This document shows positions 3,811-42,414 of a stretch of DNA of 64,000 bases, in pieces. The position numbers and the translations under genes are program-made. A model generated the notes under the pieces. That model did not search any database and was not told the origin of the DNA. It saw nothing but the letters and a program-made list of their open reading frames with translations. This DNA is from Natrononativus amylolyticus (GTDB taxonomy: Archaea; Halobacteriota; Halobacteria; Halobacteriales; Natrialbaceae), in the NCBI RefSeq assembly GCF_024362525.1, contig NZ_CP101459.1, positions 682,001 through 746,000 of the forward strand, read 5' to 3'. Within the stretch, counting starts at the first letter, position 1; the number at the start of each line of letters is the position of its first letter.

Positions 3811-4718
3811 TCGAGTTCGAAGATTCCCTCGCCAACTGTGTCGGCTAAGGCCTGATACCGTCGCACTGCTGCCTCCCCAGACGCCTCAGAAGAGGTCACG
3901 TCCGCGCCCCCGTGCTCGACGGCGTTCCGAAATAGGTTCTCGAGCAGGTGGTGGAGGTGTACCGGATCGACCTGGATCGCTCGATCCGTCTCGATCGCGA
4001 GGGACGCCCCGTTCTGGTTCACGTCCTGCCAGGCGTCCTCGGCTACGTCCGCCAACTCCACCGGTTTCCCATCGATGGTCACGTCGGTGCTTCGAGCAGT
4101 GATGAGGAGGACGTCGATCATCTCCTCGATGCGATCAAGCGACTGCTCGACTTCGTCGGCAGCAAGCTCGTCCCCTCGCGCTGCAGGCCCGACATACGCC
4201 TGCGCAATCGCCAGTGGATTGCGCAGTTCGTGCGCAAGTATCCGTGAAAAGCTCTCCAATCGATCGTTCTGGCGCTGAAGCTGCTGTTTGTGGTCTTCGG
4301 TCTCTCGTGCACGGGTGATGGCTCTCGCTTCGTTCAGGCCGATCGCGAGGCCGGCGACGCCACCGACGGCCGTCACGAGCGCGGCCGTCCAGAGCGGGTT
4401 CCGGTTGTCGACGGCGGGATTGATGACGACGAGCCCGTAGACGATGCTCATCACCACGAGCCCGCCGAGACACCAACCCGCGATCCGCCAGTACGTCTCG
4501 GGGTGCAGGTCGGTACGAGGTAACCTGTAGCCACCGTATAGGAGTGCGATTCCAGGACCGCCGACGAGAACGAAGTCGATGAGTGCCGCGACGGGCGGCT
4601 GTCCCGTCGCCACGTTGATGAGGACACGTCCAGCAGCGTACGCGAGGTACAGCTCACCAAGGAGAACGATGGCGTGTCTGCCATCGACTCTCGAAGTGAT
4701 GAGCGACAAGTGAAGCAT
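3771..4718 (-). pseudogene. Histidine kinase N-terminal half, joined to a PAS fragment
   Basis: The 315-codon frame encodes a membrane sensor kinase cut short. Residues 1-125 hold about four membrane segments. The dimerisation helix follows with the H-box ILAHELRNPLA (His163), then the N-box HLLENLFRNAVEHGG (Asn265). At about residue 275 the kinase ends before the G1, F and G2 boxes. The remaining 40 residues read like the start of an unrelated PAS domain (YQALADTVGEGIFELDADG), then nonsense. Without the ATP lid it cannot phosphorylate itself. The missing boxes appear nearby on the other strand at 4797-5024. Confidence 0.8.
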
Positions 4719-4796
4719 TGTACGCGAACTGTGAACACATGTTTTCGGAGGTTACCCTTAGTCATATGGATGCTTTTCTGGGAGATCCTCACTGAG

Positions 4797-5024
4797 TTAG
4801 TAGCCGACGACAGAGCTGGAATCCCGGCCGAATACAGGGACGCGATATTCGAGACCGGATACACGACGGCCAGCAGTGAGGGCGGGATAGGGCTCGAGTT
4901 GACGTTCGTCCAGGAGATGGCAGCGGTCTACGAGTGGCAGTGTTCAGTGACGGAAAGTGCCTCTGGTGGTGCACGGTTCGGGTTCGAGAACGTGACCGAA
5001 GTGCAGAACACGACCCACTGCTGA
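4797..5024 (+). pseudogene. Histidine kinase C-terminal half (G1-F-G2 boxes), inverted
   Basis: A frame on the strand opposite to the kinase half encodes the rest of a HATPase_c domain: VADDRAGIP (G1 box, normally DGPGIP), IFETGYTTASSEGGIGLEL (F and G2 boxes) and SVTESASGGARFGFENV to a stop. It has no start of its own. The G1 and G2 glycines are partly eroded. It fits exactly the part missing from the 3771-4718 fragment, so an inversion within one gene is the simple explanation; a remnant of a second kinase is the alternative. Confidence 0.7.
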
Positions 5025-6486: not shown

Positions 6487-6874
6487 GGAAGACGGCTGGG
6501 GGCTTATGGCCTGCGATTAACGTTCGTTGGGCGCGGACGTCTCTATGTCTACATCTGAAACCGGTGCACGCCGACTTCGTGCCATGGGGCTTGTTTAGAC
6601 GCTCGTGAGAACGGCCCTATGGCTTGGCTCCGTCGGTATCTGCGCGTCACCGATGACAGTGGTGACCACGGACCGAGACGATAGTATTTCTACCTCCTCG
6701 ATAGAACGGTTGAGACGACGAAGTGGTCAAGACAAGCTCTTATCCGTCAGCTCCATTTTTGACTCGTCTGTAACTACTCCCGTACCGGAGGCCTGTTGTC
6801 CTTAATCCGCGCGTCTCAACACAGCCGACAGGATGCATTTAGGTTGACTCTCGCAGCGTTGGTGGGTGTCATCC
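6487..6874. other. Intergenic stretch without a supported gene
   Basis: About 390 bases between the 67-residue hypothetical gene and the second DUF7344-like gene. Short frames occur (for example a 21-codon frame MAWLRRYLRVTDD from 6619), but none has length or composition that would support a call. No repeat or hairpin seen. Confidence 0.5.
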
Positions 6875-31798: not shown

Positions 31799-33904
31799 TT
31801 ACGTAGTATATGTTGGCAGTGATCCATTGACTCGTTCTGAGAGGTATCGTTCGATCTCGGCCCGCCGCCACCCAAGTGGCGCACACACCGCTTCTACGGC
31901 ATCAATCGCGAGGTCTGCATAGAGCTCACTGTCGTACTGGTCGGGTTCCTCACACGCAAGTCGAACCCGCTCGCGTGAGCGTTTGCAGTCGTCAACGACG
32001 ACATAGGAAACATCCTGACCCGGCTGAATATCCAGATCCAAGTCTGTGCCGCGTTCGAGGGCAGCGACCGTCCGCGTGTACTGTCGATATGCGTCGAGCG
32101 GTTTGGATGGCCGCTTCGTGATCACGAGTTCGGCGGGGTCGATCTCTCCAGTCCGGAGTGTTTGAAGTGCGCCTTGGAGGTGTGCACAGACGGCCTCGGG
32201 GGAGCGATGGTCATCGAGAAGTCGGATGCACTCTCGCTGGAGCGTCGTGATCCACTCGGGGGTGTGTCGTTGACGGCTCTCGATGCCGCGGAACTTGTAC
32301 TCGCCGTCACAGCGCTTTCCGAAGTACTTCGTGAGCGCCCCTTCGTCGCTCTCTGCCAGGGGGACAAATGCGACCCACTCGAACGCTGCTTCGTACTCGA
32401 GCCGAATGCCTACTTCCTCGGAGGTCGCCTCTGCAAGACTCGTCAGGGGAACCTGCGTTTCACCATCGATCGGTGTCACCCAGACGCTGTCGACGATACC
32501 GTGAAGCAGCCGCCACCCGTTCTGTTCGAGAATCTCCTTGGCCTCGAGGAGGATTTCGCGAGCGTAGGCGTTGATCGCTTCGTGGCACTCGATCCGGCCG
32601 AACTTGGCGTTGCTAAACCCTTGATAACCGAAACAGGAGACGAGGATCCACTTGATCGCACTCGACCGTCGGCGCAATGCCGTTCGCCGTTCGTCGTCGT
32701 CGGTCCGCTCGAGTTCGGCTTTGATTGCATCCCGGTCGTCGATCAACGGCTGTAGAACATCCGGGAGGTACCCGGGCTCATCACAGACCGCGTATCCGAG
32801 GCCGGGAACATCTGCCCGATCGCTGTGACACTCACAGCGGATCGTCTCCGGGCTGATGTTGTGCTGGCAGATGATGTTGGGATACAGACTCGAGAAATCG
32901 AGTTCGTGAACGTTCTCATGAAGGCCGACGTCTGGAGCGAACGTATACCCCCCGCGATCGGCGTTGTGAAGGGTACGCATCGGCTTGAAGAACTCATGGC
33001 GCCACGAGTTCCACGGGACTAACACGCCACGATCGCGCGCCTCGCGGATCTGGATCGCGGTGAGGACGTTCCCAATCGATGCCCACCCGAGTTCCTGAAG
33101 CGGCTTCCACGACCGGCCGACGAGATCCAGACAGCCAGTTAGCCCCGACTGTGTATAGAAGAACGTGTTCGACCGATCGACGATGACGCGCCCGGGTACG
33201 TTGTAGCGTGCCGGTGAGTGACCGACGTCGCCGTAGCTTTCGTACGTCGACGCCCCGGCAAGACGCTGGACACCAGGGAGGCGGCCGAGTTGCAACTCGA
33301 CATCGTATTCGGCGGCACTCTCGGTGAGGACGGGAACGAGACGGCTCGACGAGAGAACAAGCACGTCCGGATCAACACGTTCGAGGCGAGCCTGTAGGGT
33401 TTCCAAGACGGTGGTTGGTGAGCCACTGATGTAGTCGTCGTCGATCGTGAGTTCGGTGAGTGGTGGGGTTGCCAGTTCCGGTGGCGCTGCAGCGAGTTCG
33501 AGCGTCGACAGCGCCGTTCCCGGCGTCGGATCGGTACCGGTCTCGAGACAATAGCGAAACTCCCGGGAGAAATCGACGTTGAAACACCGGTAGGTTCCCG
33601 GGCGGTCACGCTGGCGGACGAACCGGGCGACCTGTTGGACGTCGTCGATTCCGCGAACGTCGATCCGGAGAACCGGTTCGTGATCGTGGCGAAATCCTGG
33701 CCGCCAGCGTTCGGTTGCCGTGGCGACGACGGCAGGGTGGCGCTGGAGGTCGACCTCGAGTGTTTCGAGTGAGCCATTGCTGGTCGATGCAGCGGCCGCA
33801 TACAGTGTCGGTCGGTAGTCGGTGATCCGTTCGTACGCTGCGCCGTCTGCGGTTACGGTCCACAGGTAGACGCCATCATCGAGATAGTCGATCGTGAACA
33901 CCAC
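31799..33904 (-). CDS. polB2: Family B DNA polymerase, PolB2-like, with altered motif C
   Basis: A 701-residue DNA polymerase homologue. Motif A is DFSSLYPNII (about 336-345) and motif B KWILVSCFGYQGFSNAKFG (about 418-436). Motif C, normally YGDTDS, reads HGIVDS (468-473), so the first catalytic Asp is replaced by Ile. The exonuclease region lacks clear acidic triads: the place of Exo II is DVLVLSSSRLVP. Starts GTG-GTG. Archaeal PolB2 proteins are known to have divergent catalytic motifs. It is the last gene behind the Orc1/Cdc6 group and may be a structural or translesion factor rather than a replicase. Confidence 0.85.
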   Translation of the reverse strand: MVFTIDYLDDGVYLWTVTADGAAYERITDYRPTLYAAAASTSNGSLETLEVDLQRHPAVVATATERWRPGFRHDHEPVLRIDVRGIDDVQQVARFVRQRDRPGTYRCFNVDFSREFRYCLETGTDPTPGTALSTLELAAAPPELATPPLTELTIDDDYISGSPTTVLETLQARLERVDPDVLVLSSSRLVPVLTESAAEYDVELQLGRLPGVQRLAGASTYESYGDVGHSPARYNVPGRVIVDRSNTFFYTQSGLTGCLDLVGRSWKPLQELGWASIGNVLTAIQIREARDRGVLVPWNSWRHEFFKPMRTLHNADRGGYTFAPDVGLHENVHELDFSSLYPNIICQHNISPETIRCECHSDRADVPGLGYAVCDEPGYLPDVLQPLIDDRDAIKAELERTDDDERRTALRRRSSAIKWILVSCFGYQGFSNAKFGRIECHEAINAYAREILLEAKEILEQNGWRLLHGIVDSVWVTPIDGETQVPLTSLAEATSEEVGIRLEYEAAFEWVAFVPLAESDEGALTKYFGKRCDGEYKFRGIESRQRHTPEWITTLQRECIRLLDDHRSPEAVCAHLQGALQTLRTGEIDPAELVITKRPSKPLDAYRQYTRTVAALERGTDLDLDIQPGQDVSYVVVDDCKRSRERVRLACEEPDQYDSELYADLAIDAVEAVCAPLGWRRAEIERYLSERVNGSLPTYTT

Positions 33905-33915
33905 GGCAACTCACC

Positions 33916-34197
33916 TCAGCTCTCACTACTGGCCGTCTCTGCCTCGGTTTCGAGCGCCTCGAGTCGTCTCTCGAGTGTTTCGAGGCGGGCTTCCTGTTCG
34001 AGGGCGATCGAGACGAGGATCGCATACGTCGGCTCGGGGTGGTTCAGATACCCGCTCGCGTCCGCGTGCTTCCGTGCGTGCTCGAACAACTGGTCGAAGT
34101 GGGGTTGATCCCGTCGACGGAGTCCGCGCCGGTAGTCGGCCCACTGGCGCTCGAGGGCGCGAAGCGTATCGCGGAACGTCGGGTTAGTGCGACCCAC
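33916..34197 (-). CDS. Small coiled-coil protein of the Cdc6-PolB2 module
   Basis: A 93-residue protein starting at GTG 34197 (VGRTNPTFRDTLRALERQWA). It overlaps the end of the RecA-like gene by 14 bases and ends 11 bases before polB2, so it is translationally linked to both. It contains FDQLFEHARKHADASGYLNH and a C-terminal coiled coil (LEQEARLETLERRLEALETE). The much longer frame to 34491 is rejected because that part is the shadow of the RecA-like gene. Probably an adaptor; no family known to me. Confidence 0.6.
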   Translation of the reverse strand: MGRTNPTFRDTLRALERQWADYRRGLRRRDQPHFDQLFEHARKHADASGYLNHPEPTYAILVSIALEQEARLETLERRLEALETEAETASSES

Positions 34198-34888
34198 TGG
34201 CGAACACCTCCTGTGGTCGTGTTTGGTGCGCCGGTGTGTGGTCGTACAGGGGGCGACGCGCTTCGAGGATGCGTTGCCAGAACGCAAGCGTCGTCTGGAC
34301 GTGGCCGTGGCTAGTCGGGTAGACGAGCGTTTCGAACCCGTCGGCGACGAACCGGGGGCCCTCTCGAGTGTGTTCACAGTGAATCGTTTCGCCGGCTGCT
34401 GCGGCGACCGGCTCGGAGAACGCGTCCGCTCGAGTCCGGGTGACGAGAACCGGAACGTCGTGCTCACGACTGTAGCGAGCCAGTGTCGCAAGCGTCTGGA
34501 GAAGGAGCTCCGTCCCCTCGCCCCGATAGCACTCGTCGGCGCGGTACAGCGCGTCGACGGCGGGTACGACGATCACCTCCGTGTCGTCGTCGAGGTGGGT
34601 CGCGAGCGCATCGACGATCGCGACGTGTTGATACTGCGTGAACCCACGGGCGACGTGAATCCGGTCGAGCACTCGCGGCGTCGGTGCGAGCCTTGCGAGT
34701 GGCTGTGTCGTCGCATGCCCGTGGGTGTCGACCCAGACGGCCCTTCCCCGTGTGGTCAAGACGTGGTCAACGACCAGCGTGTGGAGTGGCCCTCGTGGGT
34801 TGTCGCCCGTTTCGAGGAGAGTGATGCCCGGCTCGAGTGACGGCAACTCCGGAACGGTCGGCGTCTGTGAGGGGGTGGAAGTAGACAT
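34184..34888 (-). CDS. RecA/RadA-fold protein lacking the P-loop
   Basis: A 234-residue protein with RecA-core layout but no Walker A lysine. Where the P-loop should be it reads LLETGDNPRGPLHTLVVDHV (about residues 24-43). The Walker B-like strand is TEVIVVPAVDALYR (about 103-116), followed by LQTLATLARYSREHDVPVLV, the usual helix and strand after Walker B in RadA-type proteins. It therefore probably does not hydrolyse ATP and could act as a regulatory paralogue in recombination or replication. It lies between cdc6 and polB2. Confidence 0.7.
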   Translation of the reverse strand: MSTSTPSQTPTVPELPSLEPGITLLETGDNPRGPLHTLVVDHVLTTRGRAVWVDTHGHATTQPLARLAPTPRVLDRIHVARGFTQYQHVAIVDALATHLDDDTEVIVVPAVDALYRADECYRGEGTELLLQTLATLARYSREHDVPVLVTRTRADAFSEPVAAAAGETIHCEHTREGPRFVADGFETLVYPTSHGHVQTTLAFWQRILEARRPLYDHTPAHQTRPQEVFASGSH

Positions 34889-34934
34889 TCACGTGGGTAG
34901 ATGGGGAGAGAAAGAATAAGCGAGCGCGTGACAG

Positions 34935-34951
34935 TTCCGACGTTTCCGAAA
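34935..34951. promoter_or_regulatory. TTCCGA repeat pair upstream of the RecA-like gene
   Basis: TTCCGACG (34935) and TTCCGAAA (34944) are tandem with a 9-base period, about 50 bases before the RecA-like start. The same word with the same period lies upstream of cdc6. Confidence 0.5.
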
Positions 34952-34998
34952 GCGATCGACACGAGCGTCGATCGTGCCGCAGTAATGCGATTTTGGCG

Positions 34999-36057
34999 TT
35001 AGCGTTCGGTGGTTCCGAAAGCCGCTTCCGAAACGCGGTAGACGCGACTGCGCTTTTCGCCGTCGGCTTCGATCACGTTGTAGTGTTCCATCTTCGAGAG
35101 GTAGTTTCGAACCATCCGGCGGGATTTCGGGCCGTCACACCGATGCTCGTATGCCTCATAGAGGGTTCCGGGTGCGACTTCGCCGTGTTCGTCGATGATC
35201 TCGTAGAGGAGTTGCTGATCGGCGATGAGTTGGTCGAGCGTCTTTCGGCGGAGTTCAGATCGGGCTTCCGGGATCGCGGCATCAATATCTGCACGGGAGA
35301 GTTCAGTTGCGCCATCGTAACTCGCCTGTCGGGCCGCGGTCCGAAGCACGCCGATCGCGACGCGGGCGTCACCGGCTGCGGCGTCGGCAATCAATGCAAG
35401 GTGCTCGCGGGTGATCGCGCCCTCTGCGAGGCCGCGTTGGACCCGGCTCTCGAGGATCGAGACGAGTTCGTCGTCGCTGTACCGGTCGAACTTGACGCAC
35501 TCGCTGCCCCGCAGCCGACTGTAGAGACGGTCGTCGAGACCGGAGAAGAGATCCTGTTCGTCGTTCGCGATGAGGATCATCGTTACGTGAGGTAACGCGT
35601 ACAGATCGTAGAGAACGTCTTTGTCCTCGAGCTGGTCGACTTCGTCGAGGATCACGACGTACGGATGAGTGTCGGCCTGTCGGAGACGGTCGTAGAGTTC
35701 GTCTTTGGGTGTCGATTGGCGGTGAACGTCGAGCGTCCGGTTGAGCTCTTCGAGTAGTCGGTAGAGCACACGATAGCCGTTGTAGTTGTGCCAGCAGTTG
35801 ACGTAAGCGGTTTCGATATCGAATGTCGTCTCGCGGAGTTGCTCGAGGGCGTACTGAGCACAGCAGGTCTTGCCGACGCCGGTCGGACCGAACAGGCAGG
35901 CGGTTTCGGCGGGGTTACCCTCGAGGACCGGCTGGACGATCCCCGACAGTCGGTTGAGTTCGGCGTTCCGATGGACGATCTCGTCGGGAAGGAACGTATC
36001 CTGAAACACGCGGGCGTCGGCAATCACACTGGACTGACGTTCCTCGAGCAGCGACAT
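34999..36057 (-). CDS. cdc6: Orc1/Cdc6 family replication initiator
   Basis: A 352-residue AAA+ protein. Walker A is GPTGVGKT at about 57-64, Walker B VVILDEVDQL near 134-143, sensor 1 ILIANDEQ near 161, sensor 2 region GDARVAIGVLRTAA, and a C-terminal winged helix (GTLYEAYEHRCDGPKSRRMV, MEHYNVIEADGEKRSRVYRV). These proteins recognise origins and load the replicative helicase. Haloarchaea carry many paralogues, and this one sits beside polB2 and a RecA-like gene rather than at a classical origin. Repeats of TTCCGAAA flank and enter the gene (35013, 35026, 36075, 36084). Confidence 0.92.
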   Translation of the reverse strand: MSLLEERQSSVIADARVFQDTFLPDEIVHRNAELNRLSGIVQPVLEGNPAETACLFGPTGVGKTCCAQYALEQLRETTFDIETAYVNCWHNYNGYRVLYRLLEELNRTLDVHRQSTPKDELYDRLRQADTHPYVVILDEVDQLEDKDVLYDLYALPHVTMILIANDEQDLFSGLDDRLYSRLRGSECVKFDRYSDDELVSILESRVQRGLAEGAITREHLALIADAAAGDARVAIGVLRTAARQASYDGATELSRADIDAAIPEARSELRRKTLDQLIADQQLLYEIIDEHGEVAPGTLYEAYEHRCDGPKSRRMVRNYLSKMEHYNVIEADGEKRSRVYRVSEAAFGTTER

Positions 36058-36074
36058 AAACGGTACCGGGTCGT

Positions 36075-36091
36075 TTCCGAAACTTCCGAAA
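36075..36091. promoter_or_regulatory. Tandem TTCCGAAA repeats upstream of cdc6
   Basis: Two exact copies of TTCCGAAA (36075-36082 and 36084-36091) with a 9-base period lie 18-34 bases before the cdc6 ATG, overlapping the expected TATA position. Autoregulatory or origin-type binding is a plausible inference. Confidence 0.55.
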
Positions 36092-36195
36092 GTGCCTGTA
36101 CTGATCGGTTCGCCTACTGTGAGACAGTTGAATCGCCAGCGGAGGAAAAATCCACGGTGAACGACCGCAACCGTGTCGATCTAGATCGGCGACCG

Positions 36196-39100
36196 TTACC
36201 GGCGGCGACGAAGGACGAGCATGGAGACGAACAGGGCAATCAGCGCCGGGAGAACCGCGAATCCTGGAACCGCGTCGGATCCGCTCTCGTCGTCGCTGGG
36301 TTCGTCGTCATCCGCTTCGGTGACTGTGTCACTGTCGTCTCCCGTCACGTCATCCGCTTCGTCGTCTGTCTCGGCTGGTGTACCGTCATCTGTCTCCGTC
36401 TCGTCATCAGCGTCCGTCGCGTCGTCAGCCGGGCAGTCGTCTGCGTCGTCGTCAGTCGGGCAGTCGTCCGTCGACTCCTCGAGCGGGGTGACAACGAGCG
36501 TCGTCGTTGCGGTATCGTCCGGGGTGGTCACGACCAGGTCGACGTCGCCGGGTGTGTCCGGCGCGGTGAGACTGAACGTGACGCCGTCGCTCTCGCCACT
36601 CTCCAGGGTGACGTGCTGGTCGTCGACTGCTTCGTCGTTCATAACCAGCGTGACGTCTGCCGTTTCCACGTCGTCACCGCTGTTGGTGAGCGAAACGGTC
36701 ACCGTGACCTGTTCACCAACCTCGACGTCAGTTGGCGCGTCGATGGCCGTCACGTCGACGTGGGCGGGCGACGTCTCGTCCGGCGTGTCATCGTCGTCCG
36801 CCGGTGGCGGCGTGGTGTCACCTGAGTCGTCATCGCCCTCTTCTTTCTCGTCAGTGTCGTCTGCTTCGAGGACCGAGACCGTGACCTCGTCGATCGAGTC
36901 TGCACTCGCGACGCCGAGCATCGTGACGCCCTCGTCGACATCTGCAGGGAGTGTCGTGGTGAAGCCGACGGTGGTCTGGTCTCCTTCAAGCGTGAGCGAC
37001 GTACTCTCGAGCACGGTGTAGGCGTCAGCATCCGAGAGATCGTCACCAAGTCGGAGTTCGAGGTCCTGGTCGGCTGCGGCGCCCTCGTTTTCGACCTGTG
37101 CCTGCACCGTGATGGACTCACCCTGTTCGGCGGCTTCCGGTGCGGTAACGTCGGAAACCACGAACAGCGGTGCCTGCTGAATCGTGACGTCGGTCGTCAC
37201 GTCGCCGTCGTCGCTGCTGACTATGAGTGGCGCGTCGACGGCGACATCCTCGGCAGTCGGTTCGTAGGTGAACGTGATCTGTGTGCTTTCGTCGTGAGCA
37301 ACAGACAGGTCGTGTTCATTCGCGATGACCGTACCATCGAGCGCGAGTTCGATGTCCTGAAGCCCCGTGTAATCGCCAGTGTTCGTCACGTCGACCGTGA
37401 CATCCAGTTCGTCACCGACTGCAACCGATTCGGTGACGTCCTCGATCGTGAGGTGGTAGTCGGCTGTCTCGTAGGGCTCGTCGACTTCGTTCTCGTCGGT
37501 GACCTCGCCGGCGGTGTTCGCCTCGAGGCCACCCTCGCCGTAGTAGTTCGCCTCACCGTCGAACGTCGTCGGGTTGAGCTCGTTGTTGACGCTCAAGTGG
37601 TCGGCCTCCAGATTGTTCCGCGCGGCGGCGTTAGCCGTGCCGGCGTCTTCGTCGATCCGGATCGCATCGCCAGTGACGCGAACGTCGTTTTCGGTAACGA
37701 TCGTCTCGTCCGCACCGCCGGTGAACACGATGCCGTCCCCACCAGCGGCCGTGCTCTGGAGGGAGAACTGCGCAGCGTCGACGGCGGTCGTGTCGATAAT
37801 ATTGTTCGTGATCGCGTTTCCATCTGACTCGCGGAGTTCGATCGCCGTCTCGGTGTCCGTAATCGTGTTGTGTGCGACCGTGTGGCCGTCACTGCCGTCG
37901 AGCAGCAGGCCGGTCTCGACGTCGGTGACCGTCGTTCGGAGCACCGTCGTCTCGTCTGCCGTAGTCACGATTCCGGTGCCGGTGTCGTCGCCCTCGATCG
38001 TCATCCCGGAAAGGATGACACCGGTGGCATCGATCTCGAACGCAGTGTCGTCTACCGGACGGATCGTCGTGGCGTCGGCGCCGTCGACCCCCTGGATGCG
38101 GACGTCGGGCGTCTCGACCGTGACGCTTTCGTCGTACTCGCCGGCGGCGACGGCAACGGTATCACCGGCATCGGCCGCGGCAAGACCGCTCTCGATCGTG
38201 CCGTAGTCGACGGTGAGCGTATCGACGGCGACATCGGTAGTCGTCGCGACCGAGTGCGAGCGGTCGTGTTCACCGGCACGCGGTTCGTGGGGAAGTTCAT
38301 ACTCGAGGGAGACCAATGTCGTCTCGCCGCCATCGAGGTCGACCGTCTCGGTCGCGACTTCTACACCGTCGAGCGAGAGGATGATCGTCTCCGCGCCCCC
38401 CAGATCACCGACGTTCGCGACCGTGGCCTCGACGTCGATCGTGTCGCCCTGGGTGGCCGTCGCGGGAACGTTGAACTCGGTGATCTCGAACGTCGCGGGT
38501 TCGGCCGACTGGATGCGGGCAGTCGTCGTGTCGTCATCGTCTTCGGTCGCCGCTGCGATTGTGACGCCGGGGACGTCACCCTCGTCGGTGTCGTACGCGA
38601 ACGTGTACGGCTCCGACGCCCCGGGCTCGAGGTCGATCGTCGCGGTCTGCGTCTCCTCACCGACTTCGAGATCGAGCGTCTGTTCGGCGACACCGCTACC
38701 GACATTTTCGACGGTGACGGTCACGTCGAGCGTGTCGCCAGCGGTGACTGGCGCGGACGTCTCAGTGATCGTCACCGCGTACTCTTCGGTCGAGAACACG
38801 TCGACGGTCGCCGTATCGCTGTGGTCGGCCGTGGTAACCGTCAGTGGCGTTTCCACCGGCGTAGCGTCTGCCGGAACGTCATAGGTAAACACTACCTCCT
38901 CGCTGTCACCACCCGCGAGTTCGACCTCCTCCTCGAGCGTAGCGGTGCCCTCGCCGATCTCGAGGGTGACGGTCTGGGTCGCTGGCTCGTCACCGTCGTT
39001 TGCGACGGTAGCTACCACTGTGAGCTGGTCACCCTGACCGATCGTGTCGTCGATGTCGTCGATATCGACTACGAAGAACGCGGGCTCGGGCAGTTCCTCG

Positions 39101-42100
39101 ACGGTTAGCGATCCCGTCTGTGCGTCGTCGTCGGTACCGACCGCGTACGTGTGCTCGCCGGGTTCGAGAGAGGCCGTGTCGATATCCGCGAACGTGACCG
39201 TGTCCTCTTCCGTTGCGTCGAGCGTAACGGGCTCGGTCGAGAGCACCTCATCGTTGACGCGGAACTCGACGTCTTGAGTGGCCGGTTCGTCACCGGTGTT
39301 CGTCACGGTCGCCGTGATGTCGGTCACCTCGCCCTGTTCGAGTGTGATGTCTTTCGGATCGAGGTCAGTAACGTCGAAGAACGCCGGCTCGACGGGTTCT
39401 GCGACGGTGATCGTCCGATCGTACGTCTCCTCGGTACCACCGGCGCTGAACGTCGCCGTGACGTCGTAGTCGCCTGCATCCGCGAACGCGTGCTCGATAA
39501 CGGGGTCGGTCGTCGTCGTCTCTGTCCCATCACCAAAGTCCCAGTGGTAGGCGTCGAAGTCGATCTCCTCGTCACCCTCGAGTGCCACCGCCCCGGACGC
39601 ATCGAACGTGATCAGCTCCTCGGCGACGCCGGTTTCGGACTCTGTCTCGAAGTACGGCTCGATGAGAACGTCGTCGCCGTCGACTTCTTCGAGGACGATT
39701 TCCACCGATTCGTCGTCGGTGACCTCGAGCGTTCGCTCGTAGGTACGATCGACGAAGCGGTCGTCTTCGGGCGGCTCGACTTCGAGTTCGACGGTGCCGG
39801 ACAGTTCGAGTCCGGGTTCGCCGCCGGGGTCGACAACGCCATCGTCGTTTGTTAGTCCGCTCAGACCCGCGGTCGTGTCCGTTTCGTCGTTCACGTGCGT
39901 GTGATAGACGATTGCATCGGACACCGGATTGTCTGCCTCGTCGACGACCGTGACTTCGACGACGTGGCCCGCGGGGAGTTGTGTCGGCCCGAGATATGTG
40001 TTCTCGTCGCCGGGGACGGTGTCGAGTCCGTAGACGTCGACGAACCCATCGCGCATGAAGGCATCCCACTCCTCGACAGTGAGATCCCCACGATAGTACT
40101 GAAGTTCGTAGGCGTCTTCGCGCTCCGGAAGCTCGAAGTCGTATTCACCGGTCTCGTCGACGAGCGTCATCTCGACACCACCACCGTCCAGAAAGACGAG
40201 CACCGTATCGCCGGTTGCCGGTTCGCCATCCGATAGCTCGAGTGCGCCCGAGACGGAGATCGTCTCGACGTCGGCGACGGTGACGGTCGTCGTCGTGGTA
40301 TCCTGTTCGCCGTCTGCGGTCTCGACCGTCAGTTCCACCTCGTGTTCGCCGGGTTCCGTGAAGGAGTGGCTAACCCAATGGTCCTCCGTCGTGACGGACT
40401 CACCGTCGCCGAAGTCCCAGTGATACTGTTCGATGAATCGTTCCGGCTCAGACTCCCACGCAGAGAACGAGACGTGTTCATTGACGACGGGATCCGATGG
40501 AGCGTCGATGGCGGCGACAGGGTCGACATCACCGACGATTATCGGACGCCTATCAGTAAATAATAGGATGTACGGCCGTTCTCCCTTCTCTTCGTAAAAG
40601 GTGACACGTGCGTCGTACGCTCCATCCGCGAGCGCAGTTCCATCGATCGTTACCGATAGTGTATCAGCACCCGCATCATTCTCCAACAGCCGTTCTTTAT
40701 AGACGGTCCGGTCATCAGGATCGCGCAATTGGAGCACGACATCCCAGGATTCGTCAACGTCGTCGTCACGCGGGATCGTGAGGGTGATCTCGTCTTCGGT
40801 CCCGTGCTGGTCGACCCAACCCTCGTATCCGATCCCGGTTACGCGCTCGTCCGTTGCGCCGATGACGACATCCTCATCGGTATCAACCAGTTCGACGACG
40901 TAACTCGAGAGCGCTCCCTCGGTGAACATTTCGGTGTCTCCCTCGAGGTCGACGTCAAGCCAGCCAGTACCGTCTGTCACGGAATACGCCTGTATCTGAG
41001 GTTCGTCTCGGATCTCACCGGTGCCACCGTAGATGTCAATGGCAGCCCCATCGACTGTAAACCGGTCGCTCTCGGCGACGGGAGTCACCGTAACTGACTT
41101 GTCCGCCTCGGTGTCGACGACGCGCAGCGCAGTCGCCGCATCGCCACCGAGTTCAAAGGTTTCGTCGGAGTTGCTGGTCTCGATGATAAGACGTTGTGAG
41201 CGATAGTCGCCGGTTCCGCGGCCTCCCGCTCGCGACTCTGAATGCTGAATAAGAGTGTACCCACCAACGGCGACGGTTTCGGTAGCGGTGTTGGTGTCGG
41301 TTTCGCTATCGAGAACCGTCAGTTCGACCTCGTATGCACCAATCTCCTCGAACGAGTGAGTAACGGTTTCTCCAATGGCCGTCTCCCCGTCGCCGAAGTC
41401 CCATTTGTACTCGTCGTTATCGACTTCGGACGACCCACCATCCGTCACATCGAACGTTACGAGTTCGCCTGTGTCAGGGTGGTGCGGCTCGAACTCGAAG
41501 GACGGCCCGGTAACAACGAGACCTTTGTATTCAGATATCCAGTGGACGGGGAACTCCTGATCGGCGGTGTCAAACCGGAGATTCCACGAATATTCCCCGG
41601 CCTCGAGATCCGTTCCATCGATCGTGAATTCGAAGGCGTCCGCGTTGGCCTCGTTCTCGAGGCGCGTCACGTAGACGGGCTCGTGCTCGGCGTTTTCCAG
41701 TTCGAACGTGACGTCCCACCCGGGATCGACCCCGTCGTCACGTGGGATCGTGATCTCGAGTTCGTTGTCAGCGCTGTCGTATTCGAGCGGTGCGTCGTAG
41801 CCGACCCCCATCACCCGCTCACCGGTCGAATCGATCACTTCGTTGCTGTCGGCGTCGACGAGCGAAATTTCGTAGGGTGCGAACGTCTCCTCGCCCTCGA
41901 ACAGTTCCGTGTCTCCCTCCACGGTGACCGGCAGTTCAGCCCAGCCGTCGGGGCCATCAACGCCGATAGACCGATACTCTTCCGGATCGAGCGCTCCTGA
42001 GGGACCGTACAGGAAGAACTCGACCAGGTTGGCCGACACCGCCTCGGCGTCATCGGTCGGGCTCACGGTGACCAGGTCGCCGGTGGCTGTGTTCTCGATT

Positions 42101-42414
42101 CGGAACTCGAGGCTGCTCTCACCCCCGATTTCGAACGTCTCGTCGTACGCACTCGTCCGAATGGCCGGAACAGAGGCGTGTAGCGTCTGACTGTGTGTCG
42201 TGGTGCCGTAATCGTGTTCAATCTCGACATTAACGTTCGTGACGTCGTCCTCCGTCGTCTCGAGGCTCTCCGCTGAACTGCTGGTCGCCAACGCGGGCGT
42301 CATCAGACTGGTGATCATAAGAATTACCATCACCACGACGAGCCCTGATTGCAATAGTGTTCGACAAGCTGTACCCCTTTCGTGCCCCTCCCCAGGGTGG
42401 TGTGAGTGATCCAT
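36196..42414 (-). CDS. Giant cell-surface protein with PKD, CARDB and beta-helix domains, PGF-CTERM
   Basis: A 2072-residue exported protein. A hydrophobic signal segment is at about 22-44. Two related beta-rich blocks (about 60-310 and 395-620, each with a DETFE-[IL]-GG start and an IPRDD stretch) alternate with PKD domains whose WDFGDG motifs fall near residues 338, 668 and 959. CARDB-like repeats follow (about 1005-1390), then a parallel beta-helix region (1400-1605, with DGHTVAHNTITDTETAIEL), further CARDB repeats to about 1980, an Asp/Thr/Glu linker, and a PGF-CTERM tail (PGFAVLPALIALFVS then RRRR) for archaeosortase processing and lipid anchoring. It is likely an adhesin or polymer-binding surface protein. 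Confidence 0.9.
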   Translation of the reverse strand: MDHSHHPGEGHERGTACRTLLQSGLVVVMVILMITSLMTPALATSSSAESLETTEDDVTNVNVEIEHDYGTTTHSQTLHASVPAIRTSAYDETFEIGGESSLEFRIENTATGDLVTVSPTDDAEAVSANLVEFFLYGPSGALDPEEYRSIGVDGPDGWAELPVTVEGDTELFEGEETFAPYEISLVDADSNEVIDSTGERVMGVGYDAPLEYDSADNELEITIPRDDGVDPGWDVTFELENAEHEPVYVTRLENEANADAFEFTIDGTDLEAGEYSWNLRFDTADQEFPVHWISEYKGLVVTGPSFEFEPHHPDTGELVTFDVTDGGSSEVDNDEYKWDFGDGETAIGETVTHSFEEIGAYEVELTVLDSETDTNTATETVAVGGYTLIQHSESRAGGRGTGDYRSQRLIIETSNSDETFELGGDAATALRVVDTEADKSVTVTPVAESDRFTVDGAAIDIYGGTGEIRDEPQIQAYSVTDGTGWLDVDLEGDTEMFTEGALSSYVVELVDTDEDVVIGATDERVTGIGYEGWVDQHGTEDEITLTIPRDDDVDESWDVVLQLRDPDDRTVYKERLLENDAGADTLSVTIDGTALADGAYDARVTFYEEKGERPYILLFTDRRPIIVGDVDPVAAIDAPSDPVVNEHVSFSAWESEPERFIEQYHWDFGDGESVTTEDHWVSHSFTEPGEHEVELTVETADGEQDTTTTTVTVADVETISVSGALELSDGEPATGDTVLVFLDGGGVEMTLVDETGEYDFELPEREDAYELQYYRGDLTVEEWDAFMRDGFVDVYGLDTVPGDENTYLGPTQLPAGHVVEVTVVDEADNPVSDAIVYHTHVNDETDTTAGLSGLTNDDGVVDPGGEPGLELSGTVELEVEPPEDDRFVDRTYERTLEVTDDESVEIVLEEVDGDDVLIEPYFETESETGVAEELITFDASGAVALEGDEEIDFDAYHWDFGDGTETTTTDPVIEHAFADAGDYDVTATFSAGGTEETYDRTITVAEPVEPAFFDVTDLDPKDITLEQGEVTDITATVTNTGDEPATQDVEFRVNDEVLSTEPVTLDATEEDTVTFADIDTASLEPGEHTYAVGTDDDAQTGSLTVEELPEPAFFVVDIDDIDDTIGQGDQLTVVATVANDGDEPATQTVTLEIGEGTATLEEEVELAGGDSEEVVFTYDVPADATPVETPLTVTTADHSDTATVDVFSTEEYAVTITETSAPVTAGDTLDVTVTVENVGSGVAEQTLDLEVGEETQTATIDLEPGASEPYTFAYDTDEGDVPGVTIAAATEDDDDTTTARIQSAEPATFEITEFNVPATATQGDTIDVEATVANVGDLGGAETIILSLDGVEVATETVDLDGGETTLVSLEYELPHEPRAGEHDRSHSVATTTDVAVDTLTVDYGTIESGLAAADAGDTVAVAAGEYDESVTVETPDVRIQGVDGADATTIRPVDDTAFEIDATGVILSGMTIEGDDTGTGIVTTADETTVLRTTVTDVETGLLLDGSDGHTVAHNTITDTETAIELRESDGNAITNNIIDTTAVDAAQFSLQSTAAGGDGIVFTGGADETIVTENDVRVTGDAIRIDEDAGTANAAARNNLEADHLSVNNELNPTTFDGEANYYGEGGLEANTAGEVTDENEVDEPYETADYHLTIEDVTESVAVGDELDVTVDVTNTGDYTGLQDIELALDGTVIANEHDLSVAHDESTQITFTYEPTAEDVAVDAPLIVSSDDGDVTTDVTIQQAPLFVVSDVTAPEAAEQGESITVQAQVENEGAAADQDLELRLGDDLSDADAYTVLESTSLTLEGDQTTVGFTTTLPADVDEGVTMLGVASADSIDEVTVSVLEADDTDEKEEGDDDSGDTTPPPADDDDTPDETSPAHVDVTAIDAPTDVEVGEQVTVTVSLTNSGDDVETADVTLVMNDEAVDDQHVTLESGESDGVTFSLTAPDTPGDVDLVVTTPDDTATTTLVVTPLEESTDDCPTDDDADDCPADDATDADDETETDDGTPAETDDEADDVTGDDSDTVTEADDDEPSDDESGSDAVPGFAVLPALIALFVSMLVLRRRR

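Follow-up and report, generated by a model that had tools for sequence, protein, structure and literature searches.

An Orc/Cdc6-family gene and the PolB2 mutasome operon share a promoter element in haloarchaea

Gene content and conserved motifs of the locus

We analyzed a locus of four minus-strand genes in Natrononativus amylolyticus, located in a 64,000-nt stretch of contig NZ_CP101459.1 (positions 682,001 to 746,000; the whole of this stretch is referred to as the window), and observe that it is the haloarchaeal form of the known PolB2-iRadA-PPB2 translesion operon, intact, with a linked gene encoding an Orc/Cdc6-family AAA+ protein, and with a copy of the same promoter element before both orc and the operon. 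In the order of transcription, the genes are orc (34999-36024), encoding 341 aa; iRadA (34184-34888), encoding a RadA/Rad51-core protein of 234 aa that lacks ATPase motifs; PPB2 (33916-34197), with a GTG start and encoding a small helical or coiled-coil, arCOG07300-like protein of 93 aa with the N-terminus MGRTNPTFRD; and polB2 (31799-33904), encoding a family-B DNA polymerase of 701 aa. All four open reading frames (ORFs) are open, and the ORF calls together with matches to Pfam, NCBIfam and TIGR02928 bear out the families assigned to them in the first-pass annotation, which was made from the sequence alone. This annotation also described the four genes as one unit, which holds for their linkage and not for their transcription: orc is separated from iRadA-PPB2-polB2 by 110 nt containing the second copy of the element, and two transcription units are present, i.e., orc and iRadA-PPB2-polB2.

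The iRadA stop and the PPB2 start overlap by exactly 14 nt (34184-34197), and elsewhere this junction is the same 14-nt overlap in 24 of 62 loci and a 2-nt gap in 34 of 62. The orc ORF is open up to an ATG at 36057; translation most likely begins with the GTG at 36024, because alignments of orthologues begin at that residue, and because the promoter element and its TATA-like box (36052-36092) cover the ATG. Our homologue set consisted of the best 80 related loci, which with the window gave 81 aligned PolB2 sequences. The order Orc>iRadA>PPB2>PolB2 is identical in 15 related loci, for example on plasmid 1 of Halalkalicoccus jeotgali, and a related order is seen in most others, i.e., the linkage of the four genes is conserved.

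PolB2 matches NCBIfam PRK05761.1-4 (NF004418) with 1108 bits against a cut-off of 692, with homology over its full length, and its AlphaFold model (predicted local distance difference test, pLDDT, 81.1) has archaeal replicative PolB proteins as structural matches. Motif A (DFSSLYP, 32879-32899) contains the catalytic Asp336, which is present in 81 of 81 sequences, and Lys418 of motif B is equally invariant. Motif C, HGIVDS (residues 468-473; 32486-32503), reads HG[I/V]VDS in all 81 PolB2 proteins, so that Ile or Val stands in place of the first Asp of the canonical D-x-D, while the second, Asp472, is kept in every one. Exonuclease motifs I-III are unrecognisable in PolB2, cannot be aligned to PolB of Pyrococcus abyssi and are unconserved among the 81 homologues, and no PCNA-binding motif was recognisable by eye, i.e., with no profile search made, at the C-termini of iRadA and PolB2. 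In Halobacterium NRC-1, polB2 is dispensable (PMC1906834). Relatives of PolB2 occur on 108 plasmid records, haloarchaeal throughout those listed, and some plasmids carry several copies (e.g., NZ_CP085339.1, with five places, and NC_014298.1), comparable with the plasmid-borne umuDC-like operons of bacteria. Among phage records, a PolB2-like polymerase was found at the threshold used only in the Leptospira phages KF114878, KF114879, KF114880 and KX656785 (~32% identity).

The product of iRadA matches Pfam Rad51 (E-value 2.6e-8), and its AlphaFold model (pLDDT 81.7) has the cores of RadA, Rad51 and Dmc1 as top PDB matches (E-values 1e-13 to 1e-12), i.e., it has the RadA/Rad51 core fold without the N-terminal domain and without a P-loop. 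The sequence GDNPRGPLH stands at the P-loop position (34781-34807), and GxxxxGK[ST] is found in 0 of 63 iRadA proteins, in which other residues are invariant; we accept that the ATPase is lost. This replacement, the HGIVDS motif, the 14-base overlap and the want of recognisable exonuclease motifs had all been read correctly in the first-pass annotation. In PPB2, the N-terminal MGRT arm is conserved, with T4 present in 68 of the 71 aligned sequences. Timinskas 2025 (PMC11791011) modelled a three-protein mutasome, PolB2-iRadA-PPB2(3), in species other than N. amylolyticus, predicted that the MGRT N-terminus of PPB2 inserts between PolB2 and iRadA, and reported that Orc/Cdc6, lexA and SRAP genes are enriched near PolB2 mutasome loci. 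Makarova 2014 (PMC4104785) described the operon as comprising an inactive RadA and arCOG07300, with an arORC2 gene next to it. In our set, SRAP/HMCES-like “SOS response-associated peptidase” genes lie within a few kb of plasmid-type cassettes, for example at 202-891 of locus L186 (Haloarcula marismortui pHMA155) and at 1011-1700 of L185 (Halobacterium salinarum pHS1).

A common promoter element of orc and the operon

The element is approximately 41 bp long and lies directly upstream of, and runs into, a TATA-like box (CTTTCGGAAGTTTCGGAAACGACCCGGTACCGTTTAT in front of orc, CTTTCGGAAACGTCGGAACTGTCACGCGCTCGCTTAT in front of iRadA). The copy before orc occupies 36052-36092 on the minus strand (CTTTCGGAAGTTTCGGAAACGACCCGGTACCGTTTATGTCG) and includes the TATA-like GTTTAT, and the copy before iRadA occupies 34912-34952 on the same strand (CTTTCGGAAACGTCGGAACTGTCACGCGCTCGCTTATTCTT) and includes the TATA-like CTTATT. 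A search for the core over 1.4 Mb of related loci identified 59 places, nearly all of them just before genes for Orc, iRadA, PPB2 or PolB2, and the sites scoring at least 21 bits with a weight matrix in the same 1.4 Mb are again almost all before these genes, with approximately four others. Alignment of 57 copies demonstrated that GGAA and C23 are invariant. The geometry of these promoters is fixed, in that the start of the element is usually 62 nt from the start codon, with the TATA-like box at +31-36 of the element, which therefore places the GGAA core at approximately -48 to -36 and the TATA-like box at approximately -30. Archaeal activators usually bind upstream of the TATA box, as the GGAA core is placed here.

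The orc and iRadA sites score 31.8 and 20.3 bits, respectively. In the scan of the 3.99-Mb genome of N. amylolyticus, they rank first and second, with E-values (3.1e-7 and 1.6e-3) that are partly circular, as the sites used for training include the two from the window, and cross-trained and window-excluded matrices were built to avoid this circularity. With the window excluded from training, the orc site scores 42.6 bits, the iRadA site 23.6 bits and the next best site in the window 4.0 bits; random 64-kb sequences gave a maximum of 8.7 +/- 3.2 with this matrix, and the top of 200 was 21.9. When the matrix was built from iRadA and PolB2 promoters only, the top-ranking site of the window was the one before orc, and training the other way round likewise recovered both sites. 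The third site in the genome (E-value 0.011) is on the chromosome, before a PadR-family gene, with nothing else below 0.3; a fourth, weaker site, found by matrix only, precedes a second orc gene. A large chromosomal regulon was considered and rejected, given that the scan yields just the two window sites and one more at an E-value <0.05. Whole-genome searches of 40 relatives again placed the strongest sites before Orc, iRadA, PPB2 or PolB2. Among well-known species, the element lies before OE_RS10865 and OE_RS11300 in Halobacterium salinarum R1, and before E6P14_RS01220 and E6P14_RS01205 in Haloarcula marismortui. Neither promoter nor operator occurs as a word in the main text of PMC11791011, and the passages of PMC4104785 that were searched mention no such element; within this limited open-access literature, the occurrence of one promoter element before both orc and the operon is a new observation.

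The element is restricted to one clade of Orc proteins. The Orc of the window matches TIGR02928 (orc1/cdc6) with 189.7-190 bits against a cut-off of 181.3, and Pfam Cdc6_lid (2.6e-12), with a weak match to Cdc6_C, and its AAA+ motifs are intact, as first described (Walker A GPTGVGKT, Walker B ILDEVDQL). Judged by its gene neighbourhood, it would be the neighbour of the PolB2 operon that is called arORC2 in PMC4104785. In a tree of 60 Orc proteins, built without reference sequences of arORC2 or Sulfolobus Orc1-2, the element precedes 32 of the 34 members of one clade and none of the 25 on the other side, which take in five Orcs from the same genome as the window; another Orc from this genome (L168), sister to the element clade, is also without it. 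As a label on this tree, presence of the element requires 2 changes, vs 20.2 after shuffling. L018 and L021, the two members of the clade in which orc is not preceded by the element, have similar sequences before their iRadA genes, and in genomes with this Orc and without PolB2, the element precedes orc in three of four (G009, G032 and G019; not G029). A hand count over 41 genomes found the element at a cassette gene in 15 of 20 genomes with a close Orc orthologue vs 3 of 21 without (one-sided Fisher test, ~1e-4, on genomes that are not independent). Proteins of the element clade also lack a stretch of ~8 residues that follows Walker B and precedes sensor 1, in the region of the initiator-specific motif (ISM), and that nearly all other aligned Orcs have.

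Several further sites and genes were observed beside these. The second Orc of the element clade in N. amylolyticus (G000:C1:733305-734288; L170) is preceded by a variant element, CGGAACTCTCGGAAACTCACCGGTAACTGTTAT, and a sibling site 5 kb away, at C1:728708-728743 (L144, ~6709-6744), precedes a PadR-family gene. Between the two lie genes for an AAA_5 protein and a 474-aa protein, which resemble McrB/McrC (McrC by eye only) and adjoin an integrase-like gene, i.e., a possible defence or mobile island with its own Orc regulator. Two possible regulon members were seen in other genomes: an RNase_H_2-family exonuclease-like gene with a divergent element in G003 (L132, ~4343-5000, plus strand), and a PD-(D/E)XK nuclease gene with an element-like site in G032 (L154, minus strand). 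Upstream of orc in the window, a minus-strand gene (36196-42414) encodes a 2072-aa secreted, repeat-rich, PKD-like surface protein that by eye seems unrelated to the cassette.

Orc as a candidate regulator of the mutasome, and rival explanations

Because the shared element stands before both transcription units, we read the Orc as their controller and not as a starter of replication; at the level of sequence, this arrangement suggests that the Orc controls the set, and the simplest reading is that it binds the element and regulates both itself and the polymerase operon. We consider it probable that the locus is a functional haloarchaeal PolB2 mutasome operon under the control of the adjacent Orc, acting as an AAA+ transcription factor. 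We also lean towards the broader proposal that this haloarchaeal Orc clade no longer fires origins and instead reads the GGAA-rich element in the promoter of its own gene and in the promoter or promoters of the PolB2 mutasome, i.e., that it is self-regulating. In the mechanism we propose, PolB2, iRadA and a PPB2 trimer would form a translesion and mismatch-extension polymerase, with iRadA as a non-ATPase docking subunit. Orc would bind the GGAA-rich element just upstream of its own TATA box, giving autoregulation, and would bind the same element at the iRadA-PPB2-polB2 promoter, switching this unit, most likely on, upon DNA damage, as for Sulfolobus Orc1-2. Both the Orc as binder of the element and damage as the signal are what we infer from the sequences and by analogy. 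The first-pass annotation had proposed that the RecA-like protein, the coiled-coil protein and the polymerase act together, in translesion among other roles, and that Cdc6 recruits them; joint action in translesion agrees with PMC11791011, PMC8764526 and PMC4104785, and recruitment by Cdc6 is unsupported, with the promoter evidence pointing to Orc as a transcriptional regulator.

A number of observations weigh against control by Orc. In genomes G015 and G030, the element precedes iRadA or polB2 and no close orthologue of this Orc is present, so that another factor, or a diverged Orc, could read it there. In G010, G014, G027 and G029, which have the Orc, the thresholds applied gave no element at the cassette. 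The damage-responsive element (DDRE) of Sulfolobus, ANTTTC, occurs in two copies in the orc intergenic region and in none in the iRadA promoter; its absence from the latter rules out that the shared element is the Sulfolobus one. The circularity of the own-genome E-values belongs here too, as does the literature, in which we found neither binding nor induction data for any haloarchaeal member, nor a haloarchaeal transcriptome with polB2 induction.

The orphan copies in G015 and G030 would also fit a regulon in which Orc and the mutasome are co-regulated by some other protein reading the element, e.g., a LexA- or PadR-like one, and the PadR-family gene behind the third genome-wide site points the same way. 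We regard this as unlikely, given that the element tracks the Orc clade even in genomes without PolB2, that N. amylolyticus has a second Orc from this clade with a variant of its own, and that the loci examined showed no recurrent neighbour encoding a different regulator. A further explanation makes Orc the ordinary replication initiator of its replicon and the element an origin recognition box (ORB), with the polymerase operon a mere neighbour. The GGAAACGA core is presumably similar to ORB-type half sites, and the window is on a 768-kb contig with several orc genes. Haloarchaeal Orc/Cdc6 genes, moreover, usually adjoin origins (PMC3528665). This explanation appears distinctly improbable, since inverted ORB repeats flanking an AT-rich region are not found beside orc: there are no inverted copies, only two matches in the window exceed 5 bits, on the same strand and each before a gene, and the intergenic AT content (0.44) is only slightly above that of the window (0.41). 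Units of iRadA and of polB2 that have no orc beside the site are also preceded by this element, at an unchanged distance from the start codon. None of the 25 other Orcs, own-genome initiator types included, has it, and the element clade is short of the ~8 residues of the ISM region. On these grounds we rejected the origin reading.

Two other explanations concern the proteins themselves. The PolB2 family was reported as inactivated (Rogozin 2008, PMC2527604), and according to that study, Makarova 2014 and the first-pass annotation, PolB2 and iRadA would have no catalytic activity and would regulate replication as structural proteins. Such proteins would be expected to have lost what is missing here, namely the first Asp of motif C, the exonuclease motifs and the P-loop, but the metal-binding Asp residues and the motif B Lys are invariant, and Dpo2 of Sulfolobus islandicus and S. 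solfataricus, the PolB2 of these species, is a robust, exonuclease-free polymerase and mismatch extender despite its substituted motif C (PMC8764526). In that work, the second Asp of motif C coordinates metal and the first is directed away from the active centre; motif C of S. islandicus Dpo2 is 401-IID-403, the same change of the first Asp to Ile (PMC11791011). Because the Sulfolobus enzyme polymerises robustly with this change, an altered motif C need not mean inactivity, and we predict by analogy that the haloarchaeal PolB2 is an active polymerase, so we give the dead-protein explanation little chance. The “damaged catalytic site” of the first-pass annotation is accordingly misleading: the locus is a known translesion-polymerase operon, and the Ile of motif C and the missing P-loop are therefore hallmarks of the family and not damage. 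A decaying gene cluster, suggested by motifs altered relative to canonical PolB and RecA, has a negligible probability, as the four ORFs are open and gene order and promoter elements are kept, and it is refuted by the conservation of motifs in 81 PolB2 and 63 iRadA sequences. The first-pass annotation had named two outcomes that would overturn its reading, homologues retaining DTD and GKT or a linkage that is not conserved; we checked for both, and neither is seen.

Comparison with known systems and biological meaning

The locus shares with the PolB2 mutasome, as described in PMC11791011, PMC4104785 and PMC2527604, its three genes, the I-x-D motif C, the lost exonuclease site, the P-loop-less RadA core, the MGRT arm of PPB2 and the Orc/Cdc6 neighbour; it differs in having one promoter element in front of both orc and the operon, a feature for which we searched those texts and which we did not find there. 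Haloarchaeal Orc/Cdc6 initiators with ORB origins (PMC3528665, PMC3936714) are of the same protein superfamily but belong to another clade, and at the locus under study the element occurs without inverted repeat copies.

As a precedent for an Orc with a regulatory role, we use Orc1-2 of S. islandicus, by analogy. This Orc, which is not an initiator, directs the damage response and binds ANTTTC in the promoter of its own gene (PMC9738581). Like the haloarchaeal protein, it is an Orc/Cdc6 AAA+ protein with a winged helix, its binding to its own promoter is a feature of Orc1-2, and PolB2 (Dpo2) is damage-inducible in the same organism. The two differ in the DNA element (ANTTTC vs the GGAA-rich element), in the ISM, which is required in Orc1-2 and shortened in the haloarchaeal clade, and in the physical linkage of orc to the polB2 operon seen here. 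Sun et al. reportedly described Orc1-2 of S. islandicus in 2018 as a global regulator of the DNA damage response. By analogy, the haloarchaeal Orc is probably damage-responsive as well. A parallel between the PolB2 mutasome and the Pol V mutasome of Escherichia coli (UmuD'2C-RecA) was drawn in PMC11791011; with LexA included, both systems comprise a multi-subunit error-prone polymerase, a RecA-fold partner and a damage-response regulator, which is proposed in the haloarchaeal case, whereas in E. coli the polymerase is of family Y, RecA is active and the regulator is unrelated.

What our analysis usefully adds is the definition of a 41-bp promoter element and of an Orc clade, i.e., a testable regulatory circuit. 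The open-access literature that we searched describes no DNA-damage regulator for haloarchaea, and if our proposal is true, halophilic archaea would have a first candidate pair of damage-response operator and regulator. The pair would be an archaeal counterpart of the control of umuDC by LexA, present on megaplasmids too, and would mean that Orc proteins have been converted from replication initiators to stress regulators in both haloarchaea and Sulfolobales, with a different DNA element. In haloarchaea, the PolB2 mutasome is likely to be switched by an Orc/Cdc6 protein, a prediction that can be tested directly in Halobacterium salinarum R1 and Haloarcula marismortui.

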